Translations under genes and position numbers: made by a program
Shown: in pieces, positions 25,017 through 38,642 of the stretch
How positions within the stretch are numbered: the first letter of the stretch is position 1
Layout of the letters: each line of letters opens with the position of its first letter
Source: Nocardioides eburneiflavus
GTDB taxonomy: Bacteria > Actinomycetota > Actinomycetes > Propionibacteriales > Nocardioidaceae
Length of the DNA stretch: 64,000 nucleotides
NCBI RefSeq assembly: GCF_004785795.1
Contig: NZ_SRRO01000001.1
Location: 3,782,001-3,846,000, forward strand
Direction of reading: 5' to 3'
Notes under the pieces: generated by a model
Seen by the model: only the letters and a program-made list of their open reading frames with translations
Told to the model about the DNA's origin: nothing
The model's database searches: none

Positions 25017-25951
25017 AGCACCTCCTGTCCATCGACGACCTCTCGACCGACGACATCCACCAGCTCTTCGAGACCGCGGCCGACATGCACGACGTGCAGC
25101 GCCGCGAGGTCAAGAAGCTGCCGGCGCTGCGCGGCCGCACGGTCGTCAACATGTTCTTCGAGGACTCCACCCGGACCCGGTCGTCGTTCGAGATCGCCGG
25201 CAAGTGGCTCTCGGCCGACGTGATCAACGTCAGCGCCAAGGGCTCCAGCGCGTCCAAGGGCGAGAGCCTGCGCGACACCGTGCTGACGGTGTGCGCGATG
25301 GGCGTCGACGGCCTCGTGATCCGACACCCCGCCAGCGGTGCCGCCGTGCAGGTGAGCGAGTGGGTCGACGCGGCGGTGGTCAACGCCGGCGACGGGATGC
25401 ACGAGCACCCCACCCAGGCGCTGCTCGACGCCTACACCCTCCAGCGGCACCTCGGCTCCCTCGAGGGCCGGCACGTCGCGATCATCGGCGACCTCACCCA
25501 CAGCCGGGTCTTCCGCTCCAACGTCCAGTGCCTCACCCGGCTCGGCGCCCGCGTCACCGTGGTGGCACCGCCGACGCTGATGCCGAGCGGCATCGTCGCC
25601 TGGTCGGCCGCGGCGGGCTTCGAGACGTCGTACGACGTGGACGCCGTGCTGCCCGACGCGGACGCCGTGATGATGCTGCGCGTCCAGCGCGAGCGGATGT
25701 CGGGCGCGTTCTTCCCGAGCGCTCGGGAGTACACCGTGGGCTACGGGCTGACCCGCAACCGGCTCGCGCTGCTGAAGCCCGACGTGCCGATCTGCCACCC
25801 CGGACCGATGAACCGTGGCCTCGAGATCGCTGCTGACGCCGCCGACGCGGCGCAGTCGGTCGTGCTGGAGCAGGTCTCCAGCGGGCTCGCGATCCGGATG
25901 GCCGTCCTCTACCACCTGCTCGCCGGATCGCCCGAAGGGGGAATCGCCTGA
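25013..25951 (+). CDS. pyrB: Aspartate carbamoyltransferase catalytic subunit
   Basis: 312 residues. The carbamoyl phosphate loop STRTR is at about 51-55, HPTQ at 132-135, and HPGPMNRG near the end closes the active site. Forms carbamoyl-aspartate in UMP synthesis; no PyrI regulatory gene is adjacent, as is normal in actinobacteria. Overlaps pyrR (GTGA) and pyrC (TGATG), giving a tightly coupled operon under the PyrR leader. Confidence 0.98.
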
Positions 25952-27255
25952 TGTCGCTGGTGATCAAGGGAGCCTCGCTGCTCGGCGAGGGACCCGCTGA
26001 CCTGTTCATCGACGACACCGGCACGTTCGTCGACATCGCGCCGAGCGGGGCCGAGACCATCGACGCCGCCGGCCTCGTGGCGCTGCCCGGCCTCGTCGAC
26101 CTGCACACCCACCTCCGCGAGCCCGGCCGCGAGGACGCCGAGACGATCCTCACCGGGTCCCAGGCCGCAGCCCTGGGCGGCTACACCGCTGTCCTCGCGA
26201 TGGCCAACACCTCGCCGGTGACCGACACGGCCGAGGCCGCGACCCGGGTGTGGGAGCTCGGTCGCGAGGCCGGCCTCGTGCACGTCCAGCCGGTCGGGGC
26301 GGTGACCCGTGGCCTCGCCGGCGAGGAGCTCGCCGAGCTCGGCCTCATGCACCGCTCGCGTGCCGGCGTCACCGTCTTCTCCGACGACGGGAAGTGCGTC
26401 CACGACGCCCGCGTGATGCGCCGGGCGCTGGAGTACGTCAAGGCGTTCGGCGGCGTGGTGTCGCAGCACGCGCAGGACCCGTCGCTGGCGGGGCCCTCGG
26501 CCTGCTGCCACGAGGGCGAGCTGTCCGGCCGGCTCGGGCTCCCGGGCTGGCCCGGCATCGCCGAGGAGGTGATCGTGGCCCGCGACGTGATGCTGGCGCG
26601 GCACACCGGGTCGCGGCTGCACGTCGCCCACGTCTCGACCGCGGGGTCGGTCGAGGTGCTCCGCTGGGCCAAGGCCCAGGCCGGAAGAGATGGGCACTGG
26701 GACGTGACGGCGGAGGTGACGCCCCACCACCTGCTGCTGACCTCCGACCTGCTCGCGGGCTACGACCCGACCTTCAAGGTCAACCCCCCGCTGCGCCCGC
26801 AGGAGGACGTCGAGGCACTGCGCGCCGCGCTCGCCGACGGCACGATCGACGCCGTCGCCACCGACCATGCGCCGCACGCACGCCACGACAAGGAGCACGC
26901 CTTCGTCGACGCGGCGTTCGGGATGCTCGGGCTCGAGACGGCGCTCGGCGTCGTGCGCACTGCCCTCCCGGACCTGTCCTGGGCCGACGTCGCCCGGGTC
27001 ATGTCGGTGACCCCTGCCCGGATCGCCGGGCTGGCCGACCAGGGCCGGCCGCTGGCGCCGGGCTCGCCGGCGAACGTCGTGCTCGTCGATCCGGACGCCT
27101 CGGTGACGGTCGACCGCGACGCCTCGGCGTCGCTCTCGCGCAACAACCCCTGGCACGGCCGCAGCCTCAGCTCCCGGGTGGTGCACACGGTGTACGCCGG
27201 GCGGCTGACGGTCCGCGACGGCGCGCTGGCGCAGGCAGGCGCCCACTCGTCGTGA
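25951..27255 (+). CDS. pyrC: Dihydroorotase
   Basis: 434 residues, class I dihydroorotase. Metal ligands His52/His54 in DLHTHLREPG, further His in SQHAQD and HVAHVSTAGSVE, and the Asp of ATDHAPHARHDKE. Cyclises carbamoyl-aspartate to dihydroorotate. Last pyr gene of this block; overlaps the isochorismatase-like gene by GTGA. Confidence 0.97.
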   Translation: MSLVIKGASLLGEGPADLFIDDTGTFVDIAPSGAETIDAAGLVALPGLVDLHTHLREPGREDAETILTGSQAAALGGYTAVLAMANTSPVTDTAEAATRVWELGREAGLVHVQPVGAVTRGLAGEELAELGLMHRSRAGVTVFSDDGKCVHDARVMRRALEYVKAFGGVVSQHAQDPSLAGPSACCHEGELSGRLGLPGWPGIAEEVIVARDVMLARHTGSRLHVAHVSTAGSVEVLRWAKAQAGRDGHWDVTAEVTPHHLLLTSDLLAGYDPTFKVNPPLRPQEDVEALRAALADGTIDAVATDHAPHARHDKEHAFVDAAFGMLGLETALGVVRTALPDLSWADVARVMSVTPARIAGLADQGRPLAPGSPANVVLVDPDASVTVDRDASASLSRNNPWHGRSLSSRVVHTVYAGRLTVRDGALAQAGAHSS

Positions 27256-27794
27256 GGACGGCCGTGTTGGTGGTCGACGTCCAGCGCGGCCTCGTGGAGG
27301 GTGAGGCCGCCGTCCCTGACGCGGACACCTTTGTCGCCGGGCTGGCCGCGTTCCTCGAGCGCGCCAGGTTGGACGGTGTGCCGATCGTGCACCTGCAGGA
27401 CGAGGGCACTGCACCCGATTCGCCCATCCGGCGAGGAACGGAGGGCTGGGAGCTGGCGCTCGCCGTTGGGAGCGGCGAAGTGGTCCTGTCCAAGTCGGAC
27501 GACGACGGCTTCCGCGGCACCGGCCTCCACGACACCTTGCAGGCCCGCGGAGCCGACCGGTTGATCGTGGTCGGCATCCAGTCGGAGATGTGCGTCGCGG
27601 CAACGGCTCGCGGCGCACTCGACCGGGGGTACACCGTGGTGATGCCGCGCGAGGGGCACACCACGTACGACGTCCCGGACGACGACGCAGGCGGCCCCGC
27701 CGTACCTGCCGCCCTCGTGGCGCGGGTGGCCGAGTGGTCGCTGGGGGACGCGGTCGAGGTCCCGCAGACGCTCGACGACGTCGCCTGGAGCTGA
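27252..27794 (+). CDS. Isochorismatase-family (cysteine hydrolase) protein
   Basis: 180 residues. Catalytic triad candidates: Asp9 (VVDVQRGLV), a Lys in VLSKSDDDGF and Cys114 in GIQSEMCVAATARGALDRGY. This superfamily includes nicotinamidases, N-carbamoyl-amide hydrolases and pyrimidine-degradation enzymes. Translationally coupled to pyrC by a GTGA overlap, so it is transcribed with pyrimidine synthesis; a link such as ureido/carbamoyl cleavage is possible but unproven. Confidence 0.85.
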   Translation: MRTAVLVVDVQRGLVEGEAAVPDADTFVAGLAAFLERARLDGVPIVHLQDEGTAPDSPIRRGTEGWELALAVGSGEVVLSKSDDDGFRGTGLHDTLQARGADRLIVVGIQSEMCVAATARGALDRGYTVVMPREGHTTYDVPDDDAGGPAVPAALVARVAEWSLGDAVEVPQTLDDVAWS

Positions 27795-27810
27795 GACGAC
27801 CCGAAGTTGG

Positions 27811-27901
27811 ACTTCCACTCACACGGGTGGAAGTTCAGGCTTGCACGGGCCGCCCCACGCTCACGTGCGGATGAAGAACCACGCGCACGGGTGGAAGTTC
27901 A
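27811..27901. terminator. Convergent terminator region with direct repeats
   Basis: CACGGGTGGAAGTTCA occurs at 27822-27837 and again at 27886-27901. The first copy forms an 8-bp stem (ACTTCCAC/GTGGAAGT, 8-nt loop); the second pairs imperfectly with GAACCAC just before it. It separates the convergent isochorismatase-like and DUF3060 genes. Confidence 0.45.
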
Positions 27902-27911
27902 TCGGCGGCCG

Positions 27912-28544
27912 TCAGCGGCGCGGCCGCAGGTCCAGGACGTTGCCCTCCCCGCGGTCGCGGACGGTCGTACGACCGCGCTCGACCGTGACGCCGTTGCGGT
28001 CGCCGGTGAGGACGAGCCGGTCGCCGCGACGGAGTCGCACCGCGTTGTCCGACCCGGTGATGCGGGTGCGGTAGGCCTTGCGCGCGGCCACGCTGTCGGC
28101 ACCGCGGAGGCGGAGCACGTTGACGGTGTCGGCGGTCAGCGACGACCCGGTGCTGGTCAGCTCCGCGCGCTCGACCAGCCCCGCCACCGCGACGTCCGAC
28201 CCTGCACCCGTGACGGCGAGGGTGGTGATCGACGGGGTGGTGACGGCGTTGGACGCACCGGTGACCAGCACGTCGTACACCGACTTCGCCGTGATCGTGT
28301 TGTCGGCCCCCTCGACGACGAGCCGGGTGGCGGCGGGCATGGTGACGGTCGCGGCGTCGGCCGTCACCCGGACGACGCCGCAGGTCCCGCGCAGGTCGTA
28401 GGCCACGTCGTCCCAGGCCAGCACCGTCTCGGAGCCGACCTCGCACTGCACCGGGACCGTCAGCCCGGCGGCGGTCGCGGGCGCCGCCGGCAGGAGGAGT
28501 GAGGCGGCGAGGAGGGCGTACGGGACGTGTCGGCGTGAAGTCAC
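27912..28544 (-). CDS. Exported DUF3060-like protein
   Basis: 210 residues: signal peptide (YALLAASLLLPAAPATAAG, cleavage about residue 26), then a repetitive beta-rich domain with about 20-residue units (VVEGADNTITAKSVYDVLV, TGASNAVTT, TGAGSDVAVAG, RGADSVAARKA, TGDRNGVTVERG), the pattern of DUF3060 right-handed beta-helix-like proteins. Two Cys (QCEV, GTCG) may form a disulfide. Function unknown; secreted or surface-attached. Confidence 0.75.
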   Translation of the reverse strand: MTSRRHVPYALLAASLLLPAAPATAAGLTVPVQCEVGSETVLAWDDVAYDLRGTCGVVRVTADAATVTMPAATRLVVEGADNTITAKSVYDVLVTGASNAVTTPSITTLAVTGAGSDVAVAGLVERAELTSTGSSLTADTVNVLRLRGADSVAARKAYRTRITGSDNAVRLRRGDRLVLTGDRNGVTVERGRTTVRDRGEGNVLDLRPRR

Positions 28545-28590
28545 ATACCGACAGTACGCACAGCGGGCCGCGAGCGCGCCGTGGGGTCGG

Positions 28591-29322
28591 TCACACCGAG
28601 CGGGCCCGGCCGGTCACCGGGTCGCGGTCGGTGAGGCAGTAGACCTGTCCGCCCGGAGCCTCCAGGACCGTCCAGTGGTCGTGCTCGGCGCGGAGCGTCG
28701 CGCCCAGCCCCACGTGGCGGGCGGTGTCACCCCGCCGGTCGGCCGTGGCGAGGTCGGGGTGGGCCCGGACCGGTCCGTCCTGCTCGTCGAGACGCTGGAG
28801 GAGCATCCGCACCCGTCCCTCCTCGACGAGGCGGACGAACTCGGGCAGTGCGCCGACCTCGGGCTCGCGACCGGTGAGTGCCGCCCAGTACGCGACCTCG
28901 GTCTCCCAGTGCGCGGAGGGGATGTCGAGACACACCTGGTCGAGGATCGTCGTTCCGTCACGGGCGAGGGTCGGCTCGCCGTCGACGAGGGTGTGGCAGA
29001 AGGGGAGGCCGCCGGGGGAGTGCGCCACCTCGACGTCGTGGTAGGTCCACGCGTGCGTCGCCCCCAGCGTCAGAGCCCGATCGACCAGGGCCGGTCGGTC
29101 CGCGGAGTCGAGGTCGAGGTGGACGCCCCCCGGACCAGCCACTGCCTGCATCTTGACGTGCGCCGCTCCCTCCCGCGGCAGGAGCGTGAGGAACTGGCCG
29201 TCCTCGCCGCGACGCTCGGACGGCTGCCAGCCCGTCACCGCCGACCAGAAGGCGAGCGCCTCCTCGAACCGGTCGGACGGGACGTCGAGGAAGACCTGGA
29301 TCCAGGCGGGTCGTGCGGCCAT
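28591..29322 (-). CDS. Tandem VOC (glyoxalase/bleomycin-resistance) protein
   Basis: 243 residues made of two VOC halves (about 5-115 and 130-240). The first has WIQVFLDVPSDRFEEALAFWSAVTGW and HLDLDSAD; the second LDQVCLDIPSAHWETEVAYWAALTG, AEHDHWTVLEAPGGQVYCL. Metal-dependent VOC enzymes use paired His/Glu at the domain interface; function here unknown. Divergent from a single-domain VOC gene 32 bp away. Confidence 0.85.
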   Translation of the reverse strand: MAARPAWIQVFLDVPSDRFEEALAFWSAVTGWQPSERRGEDGQFLTLLPREGAAHVKMQAVAGPGGVHLDLDSADRPALVDRALTLGATHAWTYHDVEVAHSPGGLPFCHTLVDGEPTLARDGTTILDQVCLDIPSAHWETEVAYWAALTGREPEVGALPEFVRLVEEGRVRMLLQRLDEQDGPVRAHPDLATADRRGDTARHVGLGATLRAEHDHWTVLEAPGGQVYCLTDRDPVTGRARSV

Positions 29323-29354
29323 TCCTCGATCCTGACACGTCGTAGGGTCGGAGG

Positions 29355-29777
29355 GTGAGCGACTTCCCGCCCGTGGTCCCGCAGCTGCTGCACACCGTGC
29401 TCGACGCCGTCGACGTGCGCGGCGAGGCGGAGTTCTGGCGCGACCTGCTGGGCCTGGCCTACCGTCCCGGCGACGAGGTCCCGGCCGCAGGTGTCGACGA
29501 GGCCGACTGGCTCGTCCTCACCCATCCCGACGGTCGCCGGTGCCTCGCGATCCAGCAGGTCGAGGAGCTGACCGCGAGTCGCTGGCCCGAGCCCGGCCAT
29601 CCGTCGGTCTCGCACCTCGACACCACGGTGCCGTCGCGCACGGCGCTCGACGCCGCCCACGAGCGGGTGCTGGCGCTCGGGGGCGAGCTGCGGCTCGACC
29701 GCACCGACGACCCCGACGAGCCGCTGCGGGCGTACGCCAGCCCGGCCGGCCACGTGTTCTGCGTCTTCGTCGCCTGA
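29355..29777 (+). CDS. Single-domain VOC family protein
   Basis: 140 residues: LLHTVLDAVDVRGEAEFWRDLLGL, CLAIQQVEELTAS, VSHLDTTV, ASPAGHVFCVFV, the standard VOC fold elements. Its GTG lies six bases after a TAGGGT box (29343-29348), so leaderless. Paired with the divergent tandem VOC protein; converges on a CoA-transferase gene. Substrate unknown. Confidence 0.85.
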   Translation: MSDFPPVVPQLLHTVLDAVDVRGEAEFWRDLLGLAYRPGDEVPAAGVDEADWLVLTHPDGRRCLAIQQVEELTASRWPEPGHPSVSHLDTTVPSRTALDAAHERVLALGGELRLDRTDDPDEPLRAYASPAGHVFCVFVA

Positions 29778-29801
29778 GCCGGGGCCGGGCTGAGCAGCCG
29801 G

Positions 29802-31040
29802 TCACGCGAGGCCCAGGGCCCGTGCCTCCTCCCAGAGGTCGTCGCGGACGCTCGGGTGGGCGGCGTGCTCGATCAGGTTGCGGGCCTGCGTGCGCTCGTC
29901 GCGGCCCCACATCCAGGCGATGCCCTGGTCGGTGACGACCGCGCCGTGCTGGAAGGACGTCACGGGCTCGTCGACGAGCGGCACGATGGTGGACACGTCG
30001 GCCTTGGGGTGCCAGCTCCGCAGCGCCATGAACGCCCGCCCGCCCGGCGAGTGGCTCGCCCCGACCGTGAAGTCGGTCTGGCCACCGAAGCCGCTGTGGA
30101 TCCGGGCGTCGATCCGCGACGCGTTGGCCTGGTCGAACAGGTCGACCTGGAGCGCGGTGTTGATGGAGGTCATCGCGGGCTGCTGGGCGATGGCTGCGGG
30201 GGAGTTGGTCGTCTCGGTGCGCAGCATCCGCACCCGCGGGTTGTCGTCGACCCAGTCGTAGAGCTCCTGGCTGCCGAACACGAAGGACGTACGCACCGGG
30301 GTGCCGCGGTCGAGGGCTCCGGCCTTCTCCAGCGTGAGGACGCCGTCACTGAACATCTCCGTCCAGATCTTCAGGCCCCGCCGCTCGAGTACGCCGGCGA
30401 TGGTGGCGTCGGGCACCTCGCCGATGCCTGCCTGGAGGGTGGCGCCGTCGCCGATCTCTGCGGCCACGCGGGCTCCGATCATCCGGGCGTCCTCGCCGGG
30501 CGGACGGGCGACGTGCGTGGTGAGCGGCACGTCGACCTCGACGCCGAGGTCGAGGTCCTCGACCGGCAGCACCGCGTCCCCGAAGGTCCACGGCATCCGC
30601 GGGTTGAGCTGGGCCACGACGAGGGCGCCCCGCTCCCGTGCGGCCTCGATGGCGGCGGGGAGGACGTTGACCTCGAGGCCGAGCGACACCTGCCCGTCGC
30701 GCGGTGTGGTGGTGTGGACGACCACCACGTCGGGCGCGAGGGGGCCGTGGAAGAGCCGCGGCACCATCGACAGGCGGCACGGCACGTAGGAGAGGCGGGG
30801 GTGCCGACGGAAGCCGGGACCGACGAACGTCGTCTCGGGGACCACGCCGTCGTGGACCGGCAGGTCGGACTGCGCGTTGAGGGCGTGCAGCCGGGCCTCG
30901 GGCAGCTCGGCGACCAGCGCCGCGAGCAGCACGGTCGGGGTGGCGAAGTTGCCGCTCGTCACCACCCGGGGCGGCGCCTGGAGGGGGCCACAGTGCTCGC
31001 GCACCACTCGGACGGCGTGCTCGATGTCGACGACCTGCAT
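29802..31040 (-). CDS. Acetyl-CoA hydrolase / CoA-transferase family protein
   Basis: 412 residues of the Cat1/Ach1-type CoA-transferase family. Motifs: RVVTSGNFATPTVLL, a long first domain (VVVVHTTTPRDGQVSLGLEVN), ATLQAGIGEVPDATI, the catalytic region KIWTEMFSDGVL with Glu, and GFGGQTDFTVGASHSPGGR. Moves or hydrolyses CoA from small acyl-CoAs; exact acyl group unknown. The ATG at 31040 gives MQVVDIEHAV; the longer open frame upstream is basic and unlikely. Confidence 0.88.
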   Translation of the reverse strand: MQVVDIEHAVRVVREHCGPLQAPPRVVTSGNFATPTVLLAALVAELPEARLHALNAQSDLPVHDGVVPETTFVGPGFRRHPRLSYVPCRLSMVPRLFHGPLAPDVVVVHTTTPRDGQVSLGLEVNVLPAAIEAARERGALVVAQLNPRMPWTFGDAVLPVEDLDLGVEVDVPLTTHVARPPGEDARMIGARVAAEIGDGATLQAGIGEVPDATIAGVLERRGLKIWTEMFSDGVLTLEKAGALDRGTPVRTSFVFGSQELYDWVDDNPRVRMLRTETTNSPAAIAQQPAMTSINTALQVDLFDQANASRIDARIHSGFGGQTDFTVGASHSPGGRAFMALRSWHPKADVSTIVPLVDEPVTSFQHGAVVTDQGIAWMWGRDERTQARNLIEHAAHPSVRDDLWEEARALGLA

Positions 31041-31097
31041 GCGCCCAGCGTGCCAGCGCCCCCGGGAAAACCGCTGGGCCTTCCGGCCCGCCGCTCC

Positions 31098-31103
31098 TAG
31101 GCT
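31098..31103 (+). promoter_or_regulatory. -10 box of the ABC-F leader transcript
   Basis: TAGGCT, ten bases before the ATG of the short leader ORF; same hexamer type as the other leaderless promoters of the window. Confidence 0.4.
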
Positions 31104-31113
31104 GTTGGTCATC

Positions 31114-31131
31114 ATGTGGATCCAGGACTGA
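31114..31131 (+). CDS. Leader peptide MWIQD of the ABC-F gene
   Basis: Five codons (ATG TGG ATC CAG GAC) and TGA. The stop and last codons form the left arm of a long hairpin, the arrangement of ribosome-mediated attenuators found in front of antibiotic-resistance genes. Too short to judge by coding statistics; support is positional. Confidence 0.4.
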   Translation: MWIQD

Positions 31132-31191
31132 CCCGACTCGCGCCCGCGGCGGCGCACCAGTGCGCCCGAGGCCCGGCGAGTCCCTCAGTCC
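31125..31191 (+). promoter_or_regulatory. Nested hairpin attenuator before the ABC-F gene
   Basis: Outer stem GGACTGA (31125-31131) with TCAGTCC (31185-31191); continuing stem GACTCGC (31135-31141) with GCGAGTC (31176-31182); inside it a separate hairpin GGCGCA/TGCGCC (31151-31166). A ribosome stalled on the leader ORF would cover the left arm and free the right arm, changing the structure before the ABC-F start. Confidence 0.55.
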
Positions 31192-31212
31192 CGCCAGTCG
31201 AAGGACCTCCGC

Positions 31213-32862
<1,650 letters not shown>

Positions 32863-32874
32863 GATCGGTCGACC

Positions 32875-32914
32875 ATGTGCTCGACATGGACGCTCGACGC
32901 ACGGCATGCCGGGC
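32875..32914. repeat. Dispersed palindromic element related to the 93-bp repeat
   Basis: CATGGACGCTCGACGC, a short centre ACGGCATGCC, then GCGTCGAGCG: the same plan as the unit at 63312-63359 (CATGTGGACGCCTGACGC, ACGCCATGGT, GCGTCGGGCGGCCACATG). Confidence 0.45.
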
Positions 32915-32940
32915 GTCGAGCGGACATCGGTCCGCTCGAC
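32915..32940 (+). terminator. Terminator after the ABC-F gene
   Basis: GTCGAGCGGAC and its exact complement GTCCGCTCGAC around a four-base loop ATCG, an 11-bp perfect stem 53 bp after the ABC-F stop. Confidence 0.65.
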
Positions 32941-33002
32941 CCACCGCGTGGACGCGATGCCGCCCAGGGGTCGCTGCGCTGGTAGGGTCGGCGACGGCTC
33001 GA

Positions 33003-33043
33003 ACATCCTTTAACGATCCGTCCCGTGAGGCGGAGAAGGAGGT
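33003..33043 (+). promoter_or_regulatory. PyrR-binding leader hairpin of carAB-pyrD operon
   Basis: Same 41-nt element as before pyrR, differing at one base (T for G at 33017). Loop TCCCGTGAGG at 33021-33030; UCCUU at 33006-33010 pairs with the AAGGA of the carA ribosome site (33036-33040). A TAGGGT box at 32983-32988 may be the promoter. Confidence 0.85.
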
Positions 33044-33048
33044 ACGGC

Positions 33049-34263
33049 ATGGCTCTGCCTGCCCCTGCCCAGACTCGTCTGGCGCCCCGATCGGCACTTC
33101 TGGTCCTCGAGGACGGGCGCACCTTTCGCGGTGAGTCCTTCGGAGCCGAGGGTGAGACCTTCGGCGAGGCCGTCTTCTCGACCGGCATGTCCGGCTACCA
33201 GGAGACGCTGACCGACCCCAGCTACCACCGCCAGGTCGTCGTCATGACGGCCCCGCACGTCGGCAACACCGGGATGAACGACGAAGACGTCGAGTCCTCG
33301 CGCATCTGGGTCGCCGGCTACGTCGTCCGCGACCCTGCCCGGGTGCCGTCCAGCTGGCGCAGCATGCGCAGCCTGACCGACGACCTGCGCGACCAGGGCG
33401 TCGTCGGCATCAGCGGCATCGACACGCGTGCCCTGACCCGCCACCTGCGCGAGCGGGGCGCCATGCGGGTCGGCATCTCGACGACGGAGACCGACCCCCA
33501 GCGCCTGCTGGAGCGGGTCCTGGTCTCCGGCGAGATGGCCGGCGCCAACCTCAGCGAGGCCGTGAGCACCAGCGAGGCGTACGTCGTGCCGGCGCAGGGG
33601 ACCAGGCGCTTCACCGTCGCCGCGGTCGACCTCGGCATCAAGACCAACACCCCGCGGATGATGAGCGAGCGCGGCATCGAGGTGCACGTGCTTCCCGCCA
33701 CCGCGACGCTCGACGACGTGCGGGCGGTCGAGCCGGACGGGCTCTTCTTCTCCAACGGCCCCGGCGACCCGGCGGCGACCACCGGGCAGGTCGAGCTGCT
33801 GCAGGGCGCCCTGCGAGCGGGAATACCCTACTTCGGGATCTGCTTCGGCAACCAGCTCTTCGGCCGCGCGCTCGGCTTCGGCACCTACAAGCTCAAGTAC
33901 GGCCACCGCGGCATCAACCAGCCGGTGATGGACCGCACCACGGGCAAGGTCGAGGTCACCGCCCACAACCACGGCTTCGCGGTCGACGCCCCGCTCGAGG
34001 GCACTACGAGCACGGAGTTCGGCGAGGTCTCGGTCAGCCACGTCTGCCTCAACGACGACGTCGTCGAGGGCCTCGAGCTGCGCGACGCCGACGGACGCCT
34101 CACGTCCTTCTCCGTGCAGTACCACCCGGAGGCGGCCGCCGGCCCGCACGACGCGGCGTACCTCTTCGACCGCTTCTGCGAGCTGATGTCCTCGGTTTCG
34201 ACACGCTCGCTGGCGCTCGCTGCTCAACCAGCGGACGACGACACCCAGAACGGGGGCAACTGA
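33049..34263 (+). CDS. carA: Carbamoyl-phosphate synthase small (glutaminase) subunit
   Basis: 404 residues. Class I glutaminase triad: Cys265 in [14 protein letters not shown], His359 and Glu361 in QYHPEAA. The Asn after Gly (usual His) is normal for actinobacterial CarA as I recall. Supplies ammonia to CarB for pyrimidines and arginine. The C-terminal residues after RFCELMS ([17 protein letters not shown]) come from a dispersed repeat read in frame. ATG preceded by AAGGAGGT, which is sequestered in the PyrR hairpin. Confidence 0.97.
34194..34234. repeat. REP-like element, copy 2, inside carA 3' end
   Basis: Begins GGTTTCGACACGCTCGCTGG and ends TGCTCAACCAGCGG. Translated as [15 protein letters not shown] at the carA C-terminus. 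Confidence 0.6.
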
Positions 34264-34264
34264 C

Positions 34265-37597
<3,333 letters not shown>

Positions 37598-37598
37598 C

Positions 37599-38642
37599 GT
37601 GCGGCCCTACGACGTCGTCTTCGAGCAGGCCCTGACCCGGGTCGACCCCGAGCGCATCCACCACGCCGCGTTCGCGGCGATCCGGGCGGCGGCGCCCCTG
37701 ACGGGTCGGCTCGTCCGGGTCCCGTCGGCGCCGGTCCACGCGCTGGGCCTGACCTTCCCGCACCCGCTCGGGCTGGCGGCCGGCTTCGACAAGAACGCTG
37801 TCGGCATCGACGGGCTCGCCGCGCTCGGCTTCGGCCACGTCGAGATCGGCACGGTCACCGGGGAGGCGCAGCCGGGGAACCCGCAGCCGCGGCTGTTCCG
37901 GCTCACCGGCGACCGCGCGATCGTCAACCGGATGGGCTTCAACAACGACGGCGCCGAGGTGGTGGCACGCCGGCTCGCCGCGTGGCGCTCGGGCGGTGGC
38001 TCGACGATCCTCGGTGTCAACATCGGCAAGTCCAAGGTCGTGCCGGAGGAGGAGGCCGCCGGCGACTACGAGAAGTCCTCCGGCCTGCTCGCGCCCTACG
38101 CCGACTACCTCGTCGTCAACGTGTCGTCGCCCAACACCCCGGGGCTGCGCGACCTGCAGGCGGTGGAGAAGCTCGCACCGATCCTCGCCGCCGTACGTCG
38201 TCGCGCCGACGAGGTGCGCCCCGACCACCGGGTGCCGCTGCTGGTCAAGATCGCACCCGACCTCAGCGACGACGACGTCCTGGCGGTGGCCGACCTCGCC
38301 CTGGCCAGCGGCCTCGACGGCATCATCGCCACCAACACCACGATCAGTCGCGACGGGCTCACGACGCCAGCGTCGACCGTCGCGGGCATCGGCGCCGGCG
38401 GGCTCAGCGGACGCCCGCTCGCCCAGCGCTCGGAGGACGTCGTACGGACGCTGCGCCGGCGCGTCGGACCGGACCTGGCGCTCATCGGCGTCGGTGGCAT
38501 CACGACCGTCGACGACGCCCGGCGGCGACTCGCGGCCGGGGCCGACCTGATCCAGGGCTACACCGCCTTCGTCTACGAGGGCCCGCTGTGGCCACGGAGA
38601 ATGGTCAAGGGCATCGTCCGGGGGCTCGCCACGGATGCCTGA
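37599..38642 (+). CDS. pyrD: Dihydroorotate dehydrogenase (quinone), class 2
   Basis: 347 residues. Class 2 features: membrane-associating N-terminus ([18 protein letters not shown]), [28 protein letters not shown], catalytic Ser in [27 protein letters not shown] and the FMN phosphate loop [16 protein letters not shown]. Oxidises dihydroorotate and passes electrons to quinone. GTG start two bases after carB. It looks fully functional, which bears on the neighbouring PyrD-like protein. Confidence 0.97.

Follow-up and report, generated by a model that had tools for sequence, protein, structure and literature searches.

The ABC-F gene and its leader

The window analysed here is a stretch of 64,000 nucleotides from Nocardioides eburneiflavus, whose assembled genome comprises 5.0 Mb in 2 contigs. 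It carries a gene for an ABC-F ATPase, preceded by a leader (31098-31215) made up of a -10 box, a short upstream open reading frame (uORF), a bulged hairpin and the Shine-Dalgarno sequence (SD) and start codon of the ABC-F gene (Table 1). Among the NCBIfam models NF000171 (TlrC/CarA/OleB/SrmB) fitted the protein best, with 353 bits, below the curated cut-off of 800, and the nearest solved structures are EttA-type proteins. A Ser/Pro-rich stretch of low complexity lies at the N-terminus, ahead of the first ATPase domain (31213-31270). The 5' neighbour, on the opposite strand, is a CoA-transferase-like gene with a model score below the cut-off. Further ORFs around the gene were recognised by eye as what we take to be dihydroorotase (25951-27255) and the carbamoyl-phosphate synthase subunits (33025-37597), so that the ABC-F gene presumably lies inside a pyrimidine gene cluster (25951-38642, gene names again by eye). 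The sequence directly upstream in a relative (L036) likewise looks to us like the end of a dihydroorotase gene.

Table 1: Features of the ABC-F leader and gene, in window coordinates.
Feature	Position	Strand	Basis or remark
WblC/WhiB7-like promoter	31066-31103	+	11/12 consensus positions
GAAAAC box of the promoter	31066-31071	+	
Weak -35 GGGCCT	31076-31081	+	
-10 box TAGGCT	31098-31103	+	sequence
Expected transcript start, 7-8 nt past the -10	31110-31111	+	inferred from WblC promoter spacing
Segment 1, CAUGUGGAUCC, partner of the ABC-F SD/start	31113-31123	+	folds, coevolution test
uORF ATG TGG ATC CAG GAC TGA (MWIQD)	31114-31131	+	kept in 69/69 leaders
Bulged hairpin, conserved	31135-31182	+	covariation, geometry
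Hairpin outer 7 bp, GACTCGC/GCGAGTC	31135-31141 with 31176-31182	+	
Hairpin GNC bulge	31142-31144	+	
Hairpin CG pairs	31145-31146 with 31174-31175	+	
Hairpin GGC pairs	31148-31150 with 31171-31173	+	
Hairpin variable loop	31151-31170	+	
Small inner hairpin GGCGCAC/GTGCGCC, inside the variable loop	31151-31166	+	
TCAGTCC, partner of uORF GGACTGA (31125-31131) in the outer helix of the initial annotation	31185-31191	+	not conserved (2/69)
Shine-Dalgarno GAAGGA of the ABC-F gene	31200-31205	+	sequence
Segment 2, SD GGA (31203-31205) and UCCGCAUG (31208-31215, with the ABC-F start codon), partner of segment 1	31203-31215	+	folds, coevolution
ABC-F ATPase gene, 549 aa, nearest NCBIfam model TlrC/CarA/OleB/SrmB, start ATG at 31213	31213-32862	+	

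The initial annotation of this DNA had described a five-codon ORF, MWIQD, behind a TAGGCT box, and a two-part stem of 14 bp around another hairpin, followed by the SD and the ABC-F start. The ORF, the stem and, 3' of it, the SD and the start were found where it had placed them. The folding energy in the window was moderately unusual (z -2.0, with 8 of 200 shuffles as good; in a second run z -2.3, 5 of 200). As this value alone is only moderate, it is the conservation of the leader in relatives that sets it above chance. Rfam 15 gave no match in the window at the gathering score and, at a permissive threshold, a single match of 9 bits (E 4.3) on the opposite strand.

Promoter and expected transcript start

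The consensus of WblC promoters, as given in the part of PMC7157823 available to us, is a GAAAWY box 3 nt before TKGMNN, a spacer of 16-19 nt and TANNNT, with transcription starting 7-8 nt after the -10 box. The promoter in the window fits it at all but one position, with a gap of 4 nt where the consensus gives 3. When gaps of 2-4 nt were allowed, 65 of the 69 leaders compared in the genus matched at least 9 of the 12 consensus positions, compared with 6.1% of shuffles; a scan with an E. coli-type consensus found no promoter. The upstream match suggests control of the WhiB7 type. When the spacing of WblC promoters (PMC7157823, same part) is applied to the -10 box, the uORF is expected to be near-leaderless, preceded by about 3-4 nt of transcript in the window and about 2-4 nt in most of the leaders.

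Conservation of the uORF in the genus

The ABC-F gene was found at E 1e-100 or better in 70 of 196 genomes of the genus, and 69 leaders were compared, L079 being left out since a contig end cuts its copy. In the aligned upstream regions of these orthologues, which the initial annotation had proposed to inspect, the short ORF was present in every leader. It starts 6-10 nt past the TANNNT box (9-10 nt in 62 of the 69), with ATG in 64 leaders and GTG in 5, always stops at TGA, and is five codons long in 63 leaders and three in the other 6. Only 1.9% of shuffled 40-mers satisfied the same start and stop criterion, even when the TANNNT box was not asked for. The automatic pattern found the uORF in 67 of the 69; the starts in L053 (wrong codon), L060 and L073 (both missed) were set by hand. 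The loss of ORF or stem in close relatives, which the initial annotation had named as evidence against itself, was not seen.

The peptide varies. The 69 leaders encode 22 different peptides (MWIQD in 22 leaders, MLILA in 7, MKISR in 6, others in fewer). The uORF start and the hairpin lie 20-23 nt apart in all 68 leaders measured (L077 excluded; mean 21.4, sd 0.66), and the distance from the hairpin to the ABC-F start ranges from 21 to 54 nt.

A bulged hairpin with covarying outer pairs

The hairpin consists of 7 bp, a bulge of 3 nt (mostly GNC), CG, one nucleotide, GGC/GCC and a loop of 3-34 nt. All 12 pairs can form in 59 leaders, 11 of them in 9 leaders and 10 in 1. Alignment A3 holds 68 leaders, 65 of them distinct (L077 was left out for its poor fit); A1, A2 and A5 were set aside, as three-codon or short-loop rows were misaligned in them. 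Of the cells in A3, 98.8% pair, compared with 24.8-43.8% when the partner was slid, and changes on both sides occur in 6 of the 7 outer pairs. A set of 37 leaders that includes other families gave 95.9% of cells paired and 48 cells changed on both sides, a value that none of 500 shuffles reached; the two-sided changes fall in 6 pairs, and 6 of 500 shuffles had as many. In alignments A3 and A6 the outer pairs covary, but the core of the hairpin, made up of the bulge, CG and GGC/GCC, is near-invariant.

The covariation that the initial annotation had suggested looking for in the two stem arms was seen for the hairpin (31135-31141 with 31176-31182). Only this inner half of the 14-bp stem is conserved, since an equivalent of the outer helix GGACTGA/TCAGTCC occurs in just 2 of the 69 leaders, and we rejected that helix as a conserved element. 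The small hairpin in the variable loop has similar counterparts in many close relatives and is missing from leaders with short loops.

The uORF coevolves with the ABC-F Shine-Dalgarno region

Across the leaders of the genus, the uORF and the ABC-F SD/start region are complementary and have changed in step with each other. In a re-pairing test, the uORF region (-5 to +24) was duplexed with its own SD region (-22 to +6) or with those of other types. Over 26 uORF types the mean energy was -17.9 kcal/mol for own duplexes and -14.6 kcal/mol for re-paired ones (z -6.4, with 0 of 20,000 as good) and, when the ABC-F start codon was left out, the value was still z -5.7 (0 of 20,000); leaders and types are related, so that these and the later re-pairing numbers are not strict probabilities. 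Six controls gave z-values between -1.7 and +1.9, none of them significant (coding sequence -0.1 and -0.9, promoter 0.0, reversed SD -1.7). The hairpin arms showed no coevolution with the SD region (left arm z +1.9, right arm z -0.1) and were rejected as its partners.

The pairing can be followed through single types. In the MLILA leaders CUGAUCC pairs with GGAUCAG, in the MKISR leaders GCGCUGACCU pairs with AGGCCAGCGC with one mismatch, and among the VEL leaders GGAGCUC pairs with GAGCUCC in L076. The window's UCCGCAUG stands at the ABC-F start in 14 of the 22 MWIQD leaders. For MLIDA, MLIHG of L046, MWIAR and MTW of L078, the own SD region was no better than many others. The minimum-energy folds of the window and of four divergent leaders close the hairpin with a uORF:SD helix (z -1.8 to -4.0). 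Coevolution and folds together point to an RNA structure that involves the uORF and could block expression of the ABC-F gene.

The hairpin might instead be a premature terminator, with a stalled ribosome favouring an antiterminator, as proposed for lmrC, tiaA and are5sc of Streptomyces. Such transcription attenuation is the reported mode of the nearest studied actinomycete ABC-F leaders (PMC8546547, PMC12421871, each available in part), and the hairpin is GC-rich and conserved. Against it, a scan of positions 31000-31300 for intrinsic terminators found no terminator-like site with a T run, as an attenuator of the lmrC/tiaA/are5sc type would have, and it is the uORF, not the hairpin arms, that coevolves with the SD region. 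We consider this explanation improbable.

Leaders outside the genus and searches with RNA models

A search of the class gave ABC-F matches at E 1e-85 or better in 73 of 394 genomes. For 64 of the 73 matches outside the genus the upstream region was read (60 fetched, 4 from model hits), and 21 of the 64, from families f1, f4, f19, f21 and f34, had the same layout, annotated by hand. The remainder had other or related leader types and were not forced into the uORF:SD layout. The uORFs outside the genus are mostly shorter (MKI, MKN, MKS, MWI, MEL, MKL, MRI, MRN). With five near-duplicates dropped, the 16 representatives of these 21 leaders, from other genera and families, repeated the result of the re-pairing test: -18.7 compared with -15.3 kcal/mol (z -4.6, 0 of 20,000), z -3.1 (33 of 20,000) without the start codon, and z -3.1 (41 of 20,000) for nine more distinct representatives, with controls at z -0.6 and -1.6. 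In L086, for instance, GACACCGAU pairs with AUCGGUGUC, and in L148 GACAUGUGAC pairs with GUCACAUGUC.

Model R2 describes the uORF and the hairpin only and is blind to the SD. It matched in 58 of 198 genomes of the family at E 0.01 or better. Of 30 family hits from outside the model, all 20 with an E-value of 6.8e-7 or lower were followed by an ABC-F gene, as were 3 of the 10 weaker ones; L296, with a partial ABC match of 27%, was not counted as ABC-F. A blind set was drawn from 21 of these 23 plus L250 of another class, 22 in all, of which 5 were dropped, L250 among them, because no start codon was recognised automatically. The other 17 leaders gave -16.4 compared with -13.9 kcal/mol in the re-pairing test (z -3.5, 9 of 20,000), and the 15 from other genera z -2.7 (83 of 20,000). 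The effect weakened when the ABC-F start codon was removed (z -2.2, 310 of 20,000); the controls were at 0.04, 0.00 and -0.4. Some of the automatic starts in this set look wrong (L279, L282), which adds noise.

Model R1 had 55 matches at E 0.1 or better over the 394 genomes of the class, where about 39 would be expected by chance, a rough figure since E-values are per genome; an ABC-F gene followed in 11 of 30 loci examined. R2 over 396 genomes of the phylum gave 20 matches besides the window, of which 12 were examined and 1, L250 from another class, precedes an ABC-F gene; over 18 of 80 loci from a genome-contig scan it gave one match (E 0.76). Among the R1 and R2 loci examined we saw no association of the leader with other genes, since the strong matches examined precede ABC-F genes (20 of 20 in the family).

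Chance complementarity in related, GC-rich sequences, with no function, would agree with the moderate folding z-values in the window, and CAUG is self-complementary, so that any uORF start pairs slightly with any ABC-F start. It would leave unexplained the covariation of the hairpin, the coevolution that persists without the ABC-F start codon, if more weakly in the blind set, and the ABC-F genes behind every strong R2 match that was fetched. This explanation is already contradicted by the covariation, the coevolution and the model hits, and we give it hardly any credence.

Other leader types were met in these searches. In 8 of 13 leaders examined in family f18 (L110-L112, L115, L117, L118, L120, L126) the uORF reads MRN, MRM or MRI and its tail has an exact complement of 12-14 nt about 100-135 nt downstream; in several, the strands CATCGAG (6 leaders) and GGGTGG (5 leaders) could form 2:3 and 3:4 pairings, an arrangement that looks like an erm-type four-segment switch. 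In three f20 loci (L121, L130, L135) two tandem ABC-F genes are separated by a hairpin that shares the core of the one described here (GTCCGNGGC ... CGGGCC), and no distinct uORF is evident there. In f21 leaders L143, L148, L151, L152 and L156 the uORF reads ATG TGA (start-stop) or overlapping GTG ATC TGA. A different ABC-F leader, in L145, L153, L155, L158, L162 and L163, has a conserved stretch like TTAATGCA...GTTGTCGCA(C/T)TA(A/G)TG upstream.

Proposed mechanism

We put at roughly 0.7 the probability that the leader is a translational attenuator in which the uORF itself serves as the anti-Shine-Dalgarno and a ribosome stalled early frees the ABC-F start. The comparison of sequences supports such a leader through the conserved uORF and hairpin, the uORF:SD coevolution, the promoter match and the association with ABC-F genes; we infer, beyond that, where transcription starts, that the uORF is translated, what the OFF and ON states are and that drugs are the signal, drug induction of the ABC-F gene being suggested by related ABC-F leaders. 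In the absence of stress, the RNA around the near-leaderless uORF would pair with the ABC-F gene's SD and start codon, while the hairpin would fold independently and bring the two together. A ribosome held on the first uORF codons, for example by drugs that act on the peptidyl-transferase centre, would cover the anti-SD strand; it would have room in the constant 20-23 nt that separate the uORF start from the hairpin, and would leave the ABC-F start free. The WblC/WhiB7-type promoter probably adds a second, transcriptional input. Routine translation of the uORF would be expected to open the lock as well, so that the OFF state would need rapid clearance of ribosomes or rare initiation.

In a partition-function model of the window, a ribosome at the uORF start codon raised the accessibility of the SD/start from 0.32 to 0.46. 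Over the 69 leaders a block at the uORF start raised the predicted mean from 0.32 to 0.45, with a rise above 0.1 in 39 leaders and not in the other 30; a block of similar size in the hairpin gave such a rise in 5 of 69. The predicted rise is modest. Folds and accessibility model together favour an early stall as the event that would uncover the SD.

The initial annotation had proposed an attenuator ahead of the ABC-F gene in which a stall on MWIQD would disrupt the stem and turn the gene on. The conserved leader ORF and RNA structure stand, but the stem as the switch element is not supported, and the uORF:SD pairing is the more probable one. The 14-bp stem does exist in the window, and a ribosome that has arrived at the stop codon would extend into the left arm of the hairpin. 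The outer half of the stem is rare in the genus, as described above; the hairpin starts past the stop codon and does not hide the SD in the folds, and neither of its arms coevolves with the SD region as the uORF does (z -6.4). A ribosome at codon 5 left the accessibility in the window without a rise (0.32 to 0.31), though the mean over the 69 leaders went up to 0.41. Melting of the long stem by a stall on the last uORF codons is therefore very unlikely as the switch in our judgement.

The same uORF:SD lock could instead respond to anything that slows translation overall, for example a lack of amino acids, or to translational coupling or reinitiation from the uORF, and not to drugs. As the uORF peptide is not conserved, no specific arrest peptide is implied, and WblC itself is described in PMC12421871 as responsive to drugs and to amino-acid starvation. 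The strong matches, on the other hand, precede ABC-F genes, whose characterised relatives protect ribosomes from drugs, and some 80 nt, with the hairpin among them, separate the uORF stop from the ABC-F start in the window, which would be far for reinitiation. We regard a signal other than drugs as unlikely.

The near-invariant inner part of the hairpin is not explained by a lock of uORF and SD. A tentative idea, which we hold to be doubtful, is that the bulged hairpin is recognised sequence-specifically, for example by the ABC-F protein or by a ribosome starting on the near-leaderless mRNA. The leader would then be an RNA device that joins WhiB7-type activation, ribosome stalling and protein feedback, kept with changing peptides across actinomycete families and possibly classes, and rebuilt as an erm-like four-segment switch in one family.

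Comparison with known leaders

A translational attenuator of the ermC type has four segments, and a ribosome stalled on the leader ORF exposes a hidden SD. A stalled ribosome would do the same here, with two segments and not four. The 1:2, 3:4 and 2:3 pairings of ermC were not found in the window, where the uORF pairs directly with the SD region in the folds and neither hairpin arm coevolves with that region.

The following comparisons rest on those parts of the cited papers that were available. Firmicutes and Streptomyces are known to control ABC-F genes by ribosome-mediated attenuation (PMC8546547, PMC12421871, PMC10201436, PMC9226507). Nearest are the ARE5 attenuators tiaA, are5sc (S. coelicolor) and lmrC (S. 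lincolnensis), which share with our leader an actinomycete ABC-F gene, a short uORF (MVGDDDISG, MLV) and an RNA switch; in tiaA and are5sc, drugs of the peptidyl-transferase centre stall ribosomes at the uORF start codon (PMC12421871, PMC8546547). These three are reported to use transcription attenuation with terminator and antiterminator, and the 5' regions of tiaA and are5sc are 194 and 232 nt long, whereas the leader described here has about 100 nt, no terminator found at 31000-31300, and a near-leaderless uORF that pairs with the SD of a gene nearest to the TlrC/CarA/OleB/SrmB model. cplR of C. difficile and vmlR of B. subtilis also have short variable uORFs (MRI, MIN), SD sequestration and translation attenuation, but they have an intrinsic terminator as well and hide the SD in a hairpin separate from the uORF (PMC10201436, PMC9226507). 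The poly-cysteine uORFs of mycobacteria are likewise short, leaderless and actinobacterial, and a paper that cites them speaks of translation attenuation (PMC13236596), but they sense cysteine and precede other genes. The wblC/whiB7 leader shares antibiotic-responsive uORF attenuation in actinobacteria (PMC7157823, PMC13236596), but it is described as controlling a regulator gene by transcription attenuation; the gene here is an ABC-F gene that may belong to its regulon.

We did not find this leader described in the titles, abstract openings and available text of the open-licence literature searched, nor in Rfam. In the available part of a survey of new bacterial RNA motifs (PMC11109978), none is shown before an ABC-F gene. 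The combination of a near-leaderless uORF that acts as anti-SD and a conserved bulged hairpin, in several actinomycete families and before one group of ABC-F genes, is thus apparently new.

Because start, stop, spacing and complementarity persist while the peptide changes, the proposed mechanism predicts that ribosomes at the first codons sense the drug, without the need for one particular arrest peptide. If the proposed mechanism is true, attenuation would be reduced to two segments and the regulatory ORF would double as the lock. Actinomycetes are known as makers of ribosome-targeting antibiotics, and in this group the leaders would form a compact RNA family by which inducible ABC-F genes for ribosome protection can be recognised. 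A search with the model of uORF and hairpin also points out candidate ABC-F genes and, with them, how they are likely to be controlled.
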